Assembly: GCA_001797465.1 (NCBI GenBank)
Contig: MGPQ01000012.1
Location: forward strand, 323,863-387,862
Source of the DNA: Deltaproteobacteria bacterium GWB2_55_19
GTDB taxonomy: Bacteria; Desulfobacterota; GWC2-55-46
Direction: 5' to 3'
DNA: 64,000 nt
A program made the translations under genes and the position numbers. Below, one piece after another: positions 2,019 to 33,011 of this stretch. Position 1 is the first letter of the stretch; each line of letters opens with the position of its first letter. The notes under the pieces are model-generated. The model searched no databases, was not told where the DNA came from, and saw only the letters and a program-made list of their open reading frames with translations.

Positions 2019-4190
2019 TCAGACCGCCCCCTCCGAGTCCTTTGTGACGCCACGGAGCCTCTCCACCTTTATGACCTTCTTTATCTTCTGAAGCCCGGCC
2101 ATTATTGACTTAAGGTGCTGGAGGTCGTTTACCTCGACTTCAAAGGTGCAGACCGCCTTGTTATCCTGGTTAGTCCTTATGTCCGCGCTCGAGATGTTCG
2201 CGTCGGCGGCCTTTATGGCGTTGGTCATCTCGGCGAGCAAACCCTTTTCGTTACGGCAGAGGACCTCAATCTTCGCGGGCCTCGTAGTCCGCGCCTTTTT
2301 GTCCCACTCGACGTCGATCTTTCTTTCGCTGTCTATGTTCATAAGGTTCGAGCACCCCATCGCGTGTATCGCCACCCCCTGTCCGTGGGTGATGAACCCG
2401 GCTATCTCGTCGCCCGGGAGCGGGTTACAGCATTTGGCGAACCGGACCATCACGTCCTCGACCCCCTTGACTACGACCGCGTTCCTTACCGGCTTGGACT
2501 TGAACTTGTCGAGTACCTTTCTGAAAAAGAACTTCTGCTTCTGTTCGAGCTTTTCAGGCGGCAGGATCTTGCCGAGTATCTGGTGTATGGAGACCTTTCC
2601 GTAGCCGATGGAGGCAAGGAGGCTGTCGATGTCCTTCAGTCCCAGGTCCCTGCATATCTTTTCGAGGTCCCCGGCCTTGAGTATCCTGGCGTACTCGACC
2701 CCGTGTTTCAGGAACTCCTTCTCGCAAATCTCTTTTCCGAGGTCGATGGACTTTTCCCTCTCCTCGGTCTTTATCCACTGCCTGATGCGCGCCTTGGCCT
2801 TGGAGCTGACAGCGAACTTCAGCCAGTCCTTCGACGGGTGGTGCGACTGCGCGGTAGTTATCTCGACGACGTCGCCGTTCCTGAGCTTGTACTTCAAAGG
2901 CACCATGCGCCCGTTGACCTTGGCGCCGGCGCACCTGTTGCCTATGTCGGTGTGGATGGCAAACGCGAAGTCAACCGGGGTCGCGCCGACCGGGAACTCC
3001 TTTACCGCGCCCTTGGGGGTGAATACAAAGACCTCCTCGGGGAAGAGGTCTATTTTGAGCGACTCCATGAACTCATCGGAGTCCTTGAGGTCTTTCTGCC
3101 ATTCGAGGAGTTGCCGGAGCCAGGCAAAGCTCTTGTCGTCTTTGCCCCCGTGCGCGACCCCTTCCTTGTACTTCCAGTGCGCGGCGATCCCGTACTCGGC
3201 TATCCTGTGCATCTCATCGGTCCGTATCTGGACCTCCATCCTTATCCCGTAAGGCCCGACTACGGTCGTGTGCAGGGACTGGTAGAGATTGAGCTTTGGT
3301 ATCGCGATGTAGTCCTTGAAACGCCCGGGCACCGGCTTCCAGATGGAGTGGACGAGCCCTAAGACCTCGTAGCAGTCCTTTATCTCCTTTACGACGACCC
3401 TGAAAGCGATGATGTCGTGGATGTTTTCGAGGTCCACGTCCTGGTCGCTCATCTTCTTGTATATGCTGTATATCTGCTTGAACCTGCCCGTGACCTCGCC
3501 CGAGACCCCGTGCTCCTTGAGTTTTTCCTCGATTATGCCCTTTACCTCTTCAAGGTAGCTCTCTCTCTGGAGCCTCTCCTTCGCGAGCCTGTCTTTCAGC
3601 CATGCGTATTTTTCCGGCTCAAGGTACATGAAGGCGAGGTCCTCGAGCTCGAACTTCATCCACCCGATGCCGAGCCTGTTCGCTAGCGGCGCGTAGATGT
3701 CAAGCGTCTCCCGGGCTATCTTTTTCTGTTTGGCCGGGTCGAGCGCGCCCAATGTCCGCATGTTGTGGAGCCTGTCGCAGAGCTTTATGAGTATTACGCG
3801 GATGTCCCGGCCCATGGCCAGTATCATCTTGCGGAAGTTCTCGGCCTCCTGGTCCTCTTTCTTCTCGAAGGTCATCCGGCTCAATTTGGTGAGCCCGTCG
3901 ACGAGGTTCGCAACCTCTGCCCCGAAGACCTCCTCTATCTTCTCAATTGTGGTGTGCGTGTCCTCGACTGTGTCGTGGAGGAGGCCTGTGGCGATGGACG
4001 CGGCGTCCATTTTAAGGCTCGTAAGGATATTGGCTACTTCAAGGGGGTGGTTGAGGTAAGGCTCTCCGGAGACCCTCGTCTGCCCCTGATGGACGACCCC
4101 GGAGAAGACATAGGCCTTCTTTATGACATCGAGGTCAGCGGACGGGTTGTATGCTACAACTTTTTCAAGGATTTCCTCTAACCTGACCAT
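2019..4190 (-). CDS. spoT: Bifunctional (p)ppGpp synthetase/hydrolase (Rel/SpoT)
   Basis: This full-length (723 aa) RSH enzyme makes and degrades the alarmone (p)ppGpp. Domains in order: an HD hydrolase domain with an intact HDxxED motif at residues 72-77 (LLHDTVEDT); a nucleotidyltransferase domain at about 235-345, where the RFKD at 290-293 is the RxKD form typical of bifunctional enzymes rather than the ExDD of RelA; a TGS domain at about 385-447; a zinc-finger/CC region (AKCCNPLPGDEIAG); and a C-terminal ACT domain from about 648. Both activities should therefore be present. There is no Shine-Dalgarno before the ATG, and a promoter lies unusually close (see 4199-4227). It is a single RSH, as in most deltaproteobacteria. 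Confidence 0.96.
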   Translation of the reverse strand: MVRLEEILEKVVAYNPSADLDVIKKAYVFSGVVHQGQTRVSGEPYLNHPLEVANILTSLKMDAASIATGLLHDTVEDTHTTIEKIEEVFGAEVANLVDGLTKLSRMTFEKKEDQEAENFRKMILAMGRDIRVILIKLCDRLHNMRTLGALDPAKQKKIARETLDIYAPLANRLGIGWMKFELEDLAFMYLEPEKYAWLKDRLAKERLQRESYLEEVKGIIEEKLKEHGVSGEVTGRFKQIYSIYKKMSDQDVDLENIHDIIAFRVVVKEIKDCYEVLGLVHSIWKPVPGRFKDYIAIPKLNLYQSLHTTVVGPYGIRMEVQIRTDEMHRIAEYGIAAHWKYKEGVAHGGKDDKSFAWLRQLLEWQKDLKDSDEFMESLKIDLFPEEVFVFTPKGAVKEFPVGATPVDFAFAIHTDIGNRCAGAKVNGRMVPLKYKLRNGDVVEITTAQSHHPSKDWLKFAVSSKAKARIRQWIKTEEREKSIDLGKEICEKEFLKHGVEYARILKAGDLEKICRDLGLKDIDSLLASIGYGKVSIHQILGKILPPEKLEQKQKFFFRKVLDKFKSKPVRNAVVVKGVEDVMVRFAKCCNPLPGDEIAGFITHGQGVAIHAMGCSNLMNIDSERKIDVEWDKKARTTRPAKIEVLCRNEKGLLAEMTNAIKAADANISSADIRTNQDNKAVCTFEVEVNDLQHLKSIMAGLQKIKKVIKVERLRGVTKDSEGAV

Positions 4191-4198
4191 ATCTAACC

Positions 4199-4227
4199 AA
4201 TTTAGCGCAAAAACAGGGACTTTTCAA
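4199..4227 (-). promoter_or_regulatory. Sigma-70-type promoter for spoT, possibly leaderless
   Basis: On the minus strand TTGAAA (4227-4222) and TAAATT (4204-4199) are separated by 17 bp. The -10 box ends 8 nt before the spoT ATG, so transcription would start at or next to the start codon. No Shine-Dalgarno is present, in keeping with a leaderless mRNA. Confidence 0.4.
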
Positions 4228-4489
4228 TAGACAACGTCTTATTGAGGTGTCCACTTATTTTACAACCTTAAGAATATGATAACTATTTGATTCTTTTTGG
4301 TTTTTTGCAGGCCGCCCATTCGCTCAATAAACGACCCATAATATCCTTTACACTTTACAGAATTTAAATACCTTTTAAAGTTGGATTTTTCAATTAAATC
4401 AATAAGTTAAAAATTTAAAAAACTGGTTCGTTTTTTGCATTAAATATAAAGCCTTTATCAGCAAAAATTTAAAGAGGGGTCGAGATAAA
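4205..4489. other. AT-rich divergent intergenic region
   Basis: This stretch between spoT (-) and the lipoprotein gene (+) is much richer in A and T than its surroundings, especially 4330-4480. I see no open frame, RNA gene or clear repeat in it. It presumably holds promoters for both flanking genes. TTGCAT at about 4435 and TATAAA at about 4445 are too close together to form one promoter. Confidence 0.4.
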
Positions 4490-31894: not shown

Positions 31895-32227
31895 CTACTT
31901 ATCGTCAAGCGGCAGTGCGGAAGCCTGCCACGCGTTGAAGCCGCCGAGGAGCGCGCTCGCCTTTTTAAACCCGTTGTTCAAGAGGATGAGCGCCGCACCG
32001 GCGCTCGAATGCTCGTCCGTTCAGGTGCAATACGCTACGGCCTCTTTTTCCTTATCGAGCTCGCCTAACCTTGACTCGAGCTCTTTTAAAGGTATCCGTA
32101 TCGCCTTTGGCAACCTCTTTGAGGAGGCCGCGTAATCGGTCGTGTTACGGACGTCGAGTATCGTGAGGTCCTCCCCGGAATCCATCTTACTCTTGAGCTC
32201 TTCCCTTTTTATCCTTGGCGCGTCCAT
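31895..32227 (-). CDS. Rhodanese-like protein with in-frame TGA, candidate selenoprotein
   Basis: Read through one TGA (32023-32021), this frame encodes a complete 110-residue single-domain rhodanese. The N-terminal half has LTILDVRNTTDYAAS and KAIRIPLKELESRLGEL; the active-site region is AYCT, then the TGA at codon 69, then TDEHSSAGAALILL; the end has NNGFKKASALLGGFNAW. Related rhodaneses commonly read YCTC(P/x)DE(A/x)(S/T)SA here, so the TGA falls on a conserved Cys, and one base change separates TGC from TGA. A hairpin of bacterial SECIS type follows (31988-32006). AAAAAGGACGG precedes ATG 32227, 12 bp after pncA, so the two are probably one operon. The alternative is a nonsense-mutated pseudogene, but the frame beyond the TGA is fully conserved. 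Confidence 0.7.
31988..32006 (-). promoter_or_regulatory. Candidate bacterial SECIS hairpin
   Basis: On the minus strand, 14 nt after the in-frame TGA, lies a perfect 7-bp GC-rich stem (GAGCGCC/GGCGCTC) with loop GGTGC. The loop starts 22 nt after the TGA and its first two bases are G. Both features fit the general bacterial SECIS pattern, in which a hairpin shortly after the UGA carries a G at the start of the apical loop for SelB. It lies within the coding sequence, as bacterial SECIS elements do. Confidence 0.55.
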
Positions 32228-32239
32228 AATCCGTCCTTT

Positions 32240-32830
32240 TTATGCGAACTCTATCTCGTCTACCGTAGATGTATCGGCGCCTTTTGCCATCATATCCTCA
32301 AGGGCCGTCTCTGAATCGCCGGGGTTGGCGTCAACGCCCCTTATGGCGTCGAGCAGGACCGTCACCTTGAAGCCTCTGCCAAGTCCGTCCAACGCGGTCG
32401 CCTTTACGCAGTAGTCGGTGGCGAGCCCGCCTATATAGATGTGCGTTATACCCCTCCCCTTTAGAGAATCCTCGAAGTCCAGCCCAACAGCGTCGTGGCC
32501 GTCGAAACCTGAGTAGCTGTCCCCTTCGGGAGATTCGCCCTTTGTGATTATTACCGCGTCAGCTGGAATCTTCAGCCCCGGATGGAATCGCGCGCCCTCT
32601 GTCTCCTGTATGCAGTGCGGAGGCCACAAGCCGCCGAATTCCTTAAAGTGGACAGTCCTTGCCGGGTGCCAGTCCCTTGTAAAGAAGACCGGGACCCCGG
32701 CGGCCATGAAAAGGTCCAGGTACCTTTTTACAACCGGGACTATCCCGTCGCCCTCGGGTATTGGTAACGCCCCTCCGGGGCAGAAGTCGTTCTGGAGGTC
32801 GACTATGACGAGAGCGCTACTATTCTTCAT
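32240..32830 (-). CDS. pncA: Nicotinamidase/pyrazinamidase
   Basis: This 196-residue isochorismatase-fold amidase converts nicotinamide to nicotinate for NAD salvage. The catalytic triad is visible: Asp in IVDLQNDFCPGG, Lys in IITKGESPEGDSYSGF and Cys in GLATDYCVKATALDG. Metal-binding residues are in FTRDWHPARTVHF. ATG 32830 follows a GGAGGGAG site; a longer frame to 32869 adds a glycine-rich tail of no relevance. A TATAAT on the minus strand at 32874-32869 may be its -10 box. The candidate selenoprotein follows 12 bp after its stop. Confidence 0.94.
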   Translation of the reverse strand: MKNSSALVIVDLQNDFCPGGALPIPEGDGIVPVVKRYLDLFMAAGVPVFFTRDWHPARTVHFKEFGGLWPPHCIQETEGARFHPGLKIPADAVIITKGESPEGDSYSGFDGHDAVGLDFEDSLKGRGITHIYIGGLATDYCVKATALDGLGRGFKVTVLLDAIRGVDANPGDSETALEDMMAKGADTSTVDEIEFA

Positions 32831-33011
32831 CGCCCCGCTCCCTCCATCGGCCCCTCCTCTGGCCTTCAATTATACAAGACTCCAGGCCGATAACCGGCCC
32901 GTCAGAAAAATAATATCGGATTTTCCTTTTGTGTCAAGGCAGAGGGGTTGAAAATGGTGAGGTTTTGGTCTATCCTTATCTATTCGGAATTGAAAACGGA
33001 GGTTTTATACG

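Follow-up and report, generated by a model that had tools for sequence, protein, structure and literature searches.

A probable CxU rhodanese-fold selenoprotein encoded in a deltaproteobacterial genome

We describe a gene of Deltaproteobacteria bacterium GWB2_55_19 that very probably (about 95%) encodes a CxU rhodanese-fold selenoprotein, with the UGA at codon 69 serving as a selenocysteine (Sec) codon. The reading draws on comparative sequence evidence: an in-frame TGA retained across many relatives, conservation of the frame downstream of it, a SECIS-like hairpin, and the Sec machinery of the host genome. The protein is a well-supported addition to a CxU selenoprotein kind that is already known. 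The gene and its surroundings were examined in a stretch of 64,000 nucleotides (the window), and the features discussed below are collected in Table 1.

Table 1. Features of the rhodanese locus, with positions counted from the first nucleotide of the window.
Feature	Position	Strand	Remarks
Candidate single-domain rhodanese selenoprotein gene	31895..32227	minus	ATG 32227, TAG 31897..31895; 110 residues + stop
In-frame TGA, codon 69, putatively read as selenocysteine	32021..32023	minus	C67-T68-U69 motif, active-site loop
SECIS-like hairpin	31988..32006	minus	7-bp stem GAGCGCC/GGCGCTC, loop GGTGC, 14 nt after TGA
Neighboring nicotinamidase-like gene (pncA)	32240..32869	minus	name from the first sequence-only reading

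A rhodanese frame continues through an in-frame TGA

The frame opens with ATG and runs through 68 sense codons, the TGA, and 41 further codons to a TAG at codon 111, with no stop besides TGA codon 69 and this terminal TAG. A Shine-Dalgarno-like AAAGGA lies 5' of the ATG. A preliminary description of this DNA had proposed a rhodanese frame with one TGA at codon 69, in the context YCT-U-TDE, and the read-through product agrees with that proposal, matching the Pfam Rhodanese model (PF00581) at 55.1 bits (E=1.2e-14; curated cut-off 22.2). Because the match spans residues 9-102, there is rhodanese sequence on both sides of the TGA. The protein is leaderless and probably cytosolic.

TGA is an ordinary stop in this code, and standard gene finding lists a 68-amino-acid open reading frame here, as would be expected if translation ended at 68 residues and the remainder were the remnant of a pseudogene. 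Against such a true stop stand the retention of the TGA throughout the genus (five genomes) and in the 51 best matches, which come from many families, the purifying selection on the sequence 3' of it, and the Sec machinery in the genome. We regard a pseudogene or true stop as very improbable and, in practice, already refuted.

The TGA and the sequence downstream of it are conserved

Searches of 97 related genomes returned 51 best matches (E up to 2.4e-16), all 51 with an in-frame TGA and 50 with exactly one. The UGA-containing homologues that the preliminary description had proposed to look for in sister genomes turned up in each of the four other members of the genus; counting our own genome, the TGA is kept in all five. 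Across 80 loci of the genome collection, the codon at the Sec position is TGA in 73, TGT or TGC in 5, and unread in 2 (L080, with two TGA codons, and L090, which is frame-shifted), although these relatives share ancestry and the counts overstate the number of independent events. In L090 (match 4001-4328), a frameshift 5' of the TGA disrupts the rhodanese frame and represents either gene decay or an assembly error.

The pattern is that of a bacterial selenoprotein, with an in-frame UGA conserved among homologues and Cys in others. The five homologues with TGT or TGC at this codon bear out the Cys/Sec exchange that had been suggested. The accompanying statement that many homologues read YCTC was right in that YCTC, YCSC, and FCTC forms exist, but these are a minority and TGA is the usual codon (73/80 loci). 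The occurrence of TGY forms in some homologues is also what gives any footing to the idea of a sequencing or assembly error, in which the codon would really be TGC or TGT. The same TGA, together with the conserved hairpin, is found in independent assemblies of sister genomes; since each of the five genomes in the genus has the TGA, it is not an assembly error, a possibility to which we assign even less weight than to a true stop.

Decay 3' of the TGA in sister genomes, which would have spoken against the Sec reading, was not seen in those checked. The sequence is conserved there, and dN/dS 3' of the TGA lies between 0.05 and 0.2 in most comparisons (0.54 in one), which indicates that the downstream frame is under purifying selection. 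The residues invariant in 27 relatives are Y66, C67, position 69, E72, S75, A76, and A79.

A protein 88% identical to the window protein is encoded at L049 (JACREU010000070.1), in a deltaproteobacterial metagenome-assembled genome (MAG) from groundwater, and the host is presumably a groundwater bacterium, given that its closest named relatives in the collection are groundwater MAGs. A search of plasmids matched only diverged rhodaneses, at <60% identity.

The genome encodes the selenocysteine machinery

The host genome (2.6 Mb in 21 contigs, listed as 100% complete) holds all four components that the preliminary description had named as a check: tRNA-Sec (72 bits, over the cut-off, anticodon tca), SelB (350 bits), SelA (573 bits), and SelD (372 bits). 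The selD gene (L130, G000:C5:28864-29790) contains a single in-frame TGA, and SelD is for this reason probably a selenoprotein itself. With this machinery present, the TGA conserved in the genus, and the downstream sequence conserved, the original proposal that the TGA encodes Sec is well supported.

We also compared genomes of the class. SelB scores above threshold in 32 of the 37 class genomes with the TGA rhodanese versus 11 of the 26 without it (Fisher p=3e-4), and all five genomes that have the TGA rhodanese with selB below threshold contain selA. In four same-family genomes without selB and without the TGA rhodanese, selA was not found either. Some genomes (e.g., G007) have selB and no TGA rhodanese, as would be expected if such a gene can be lost.

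A conserved SECIS-like hairpin follows the TGA

Bacterial SECIS elements are characterized by a hairpin close behind the UGA whose small apical loop contains a G (PMC1088965). Both features are present at this locus, exactly as first described: a perfect 7-bp GC stem that starts 14 nt after the TGA and is closed by the loop GGTGC, with SECIS-like spacing and loop G. The region (54 nt) folds at -18.3 kcal/mol, which is modestly stable relative to dinucleotide shuffles (z -1.34). The window has 1876 TGA triplets, and only 1.2% of them are followed by a stem of like quality and range. In synonymous recodings of the codons, drawn from the codon usage of the window itself, 2.3% folded as well and 0.4% retained the 5-bp core stem with a GU loop; the rhodanese protein sequence by itself favors a GC stem.

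Among relatives, 70 of 74 TGA forms have the full 5-bp stem, where synonymous recoding would predict about 4%, and 1 of 5 Cys forms has it. Compensatory changes occur at two pairs, C-G to U-A at one (four sequences) and C-G to G-C at another (one sequence), and the stem covariation score was reached in 0/500 shuffles. Searching the genome with Rfam SECIS_1 gave no match, as was also the case for the control genomes, and an Rfam scan of the hairpin site gave chance-level matches only. Taken together with the Sec machinery, these features suggest that SelB and tRNA-Sec would decode UGA codon 69 under the guidance of the hairpin 14 nt downstream; we infer actual Sec insertion, the binding of SelB by the hairpin, and the chemistry considered below.

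One locus, L091 in an Acidobacteria MAG, has TGT (Cys) at the Sec position and keeps the complete SECIS-like stem with the loop CGTGT. It looks as if Sec had lately been replaced by Cys there.

The active-site loop carries a predicted pair of chalcogen residues

An AlphaFold model, built with Cys substituting for Sec, has a rhodanese fold (pLDDT 88.7, pTM 0.80). Its best structural match is the rhodanese domain 3tp9 (Z 18.4, 1.8 A, 104 residues), and it also resembles the single-domain rhodanese GlpE (Z 14.7 to 1gmx). GlpE has a catalytic Cys and no Sec, whereas the loop of the window protein holds a C-x-U pair. In the model, residue 66 is the last of the predicted strand, directly before C67, in the loop motif Y66-C67-T68-U69, both of whose chalcogen positions are invariant in the 27 relatives. 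Sequence alignment places the canonical catalytic Cys at position 69 relative to 6mxv and 1yt8 and at position 67 relative to 6pfz, so that either C67 or U69 may occupy the canonical catalytic place, an ambiguous assignment.

We tentatively favor, at somewhat less than even odds, a mechanism in which sulfane sulfur is the target of a selenol-thiol pair, over plain sulfur transfer or peroxide removal. One of the two loop residues, C67 or U69, would take up sulfur or become oxidized, the other would resolve it via an Se-S bond, and a thioredoxin-like reductant would then reopen that bond. A selenoprotein performing ordinary sulfur transfer is a serious contender, if not a probable one; here, one residue of the loop would deliver sulfur to an acceptor protein as a persulfide or selenosulfide, with no redox role for the second chalcogen as its partner. 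It would suit the predicted rhodanese fold, since sulfurtransferases and persulfide-handling domains are among the closest structures, and the weaker matches to MoeB and MoeZ models. The invariance of both chalcogen positions, and the relatives in which each of the two is predicted to be Sec, suggest that the two residues work as a pair.

Some relatives possibly encode Sec at both positions

Five loci in five genomes from four families (L140, L141, L143, L145, and L146) have a YUxU motif, with a TGA at both positions and the same kind of hairpin after it. L141 is the same locus as L133, and L145 the same as L134 and L080 (G006:C3:186817-187140). These relatives carry a signal peptide or an N-terminal extension. 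Four of the five group together in a tree, with L145 apart, a topology compatible with a single origin. Three other matches to the UxU pattern were not rhodaneses and were set aside.

UxU is not among the rhodanese forms tabulated in a recent review (PMC13188914), and our literature search for a UxU rhodanese found none among the papers covered, so this is possibly an undescribed double-Sec form. The CxC, CxU, and UxU proteins offer a natural series for a direct test of what Sec does in rhodaneses. It is conceivable, if on present evidence somewhat doubtful, that CxU and UxU rhodaneses are in general selenium redox-pair enzymes, forming Se-S or Se-Se bonds in the active-site loop, and that the leaderless clade is a cytosolic branch with a function of its own.

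The protein belongs to a leaderless branch of a known kind

That a class of Sec-containing rhodaneses was known beforehand, as the preliminary description stated, is correct. The CxU kind appears as "Rhodanese-like domain-containing protein form 3" (NF041203) in a 2026 review, which credits it to Zhang and Gladyshev 2005 (PMC13188914), and as COG0607 form 2, CxU, in an earlier one (PMC9312934). Form 3 is defined by a rhodanese domain with a CxU motif (PMC13188914, PMC9312934), and the window protein has both, with YCTU.

By far the best model for the window protein is NF041203 rhodanese_LYCAU, "rhodanese-related (seleno)protein" (NCBIfam), with which it shares the domain and the Sec position (YCxU) over model positions 19-126 of 126. 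It differs in lacking a signal peptide and in its score of 99.6 bits, which is below the curated cut-off of 115. The window protein is thus of the CxU selenoprotein kind by motif and lies just outside NF041203 by threshold, being no certified member. Its leaderless relatives behave likewise: the seven that we scored (L049, L052, L060, L062, L066, L070, and L095) reached 91-109, all below the cut-off, and one membrane-anchored relative reached 98.5, while two with signal peptides passed at 117 and 119. There is also a weak match (21.7 bits) to TsoB (NF045694, rhodanese/DsbD fusion-like selenoprotein, UxxxxU), another rhodanese domain with Sec, although TsoB is far larger (a 572-position model) and has two Sec residues and a different motif.

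In a phylogeny in which L049 (88% identical) stands for the window protein, and which is based on a short alignment with many unresolved forks, the leaderless deltaproteobacterial forms make up one clade (15 rows, support 82/88) beside signal-peptide forms of related bacteria. The automatic "leaderless" label of the tree is wrong for some membrane-anchored rokubacterial and acidobacterial forms, and we rely only on the deltaproteobacterial leaderless clade. The novelty initially attributed to the short form and its Sec position did not survive comparison: at least 15 relatives have the short form, which is found in Acidobacteria, Planctomycetes, and Chloroflexi as well, and many relatives share the position of Sec. 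A modestly distinctive point is the existence of a leaderless clade that scores just under the NF041203 cut-off. This branch is missed by NF041203, and genes of this type are therefore likely annotated as truncated. For groundwater bacteria, which are poorly known, the gene enlarges the predicted selenoproteome by one well-supported member.

The adjacent pncA gene is part of a longer conserved gene order

The putative pncA gene ends 12 nt 5' of the rhodanese gene on the same strand, and the two are probably cotranscribed. Their pairing, which had been put forward as possibly new, turned out to be kept in nearby lineages only, where it forms part of a more extended conserved gene order. Such adjacency could point to a common pathway, with the rhodanese acting alongside pncA in NAD salvage, and of 16 close relatives checked, 13 do have pncA immediately 5' of the rhodanese gene (L049-L058, L060, L061, and L090). 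It is absent beside the rhodanese gene in the other three (L059, L062, and L063) and was not seen at any more distant locus, and we consider the NAD-salvage link unlikely. Genes for an M16 peptidase and a fumarase are likewise conserved around the rhodanese gene, and the adjacency of pncA may therefore reflect plain synteny, which we prefer to a functional link.
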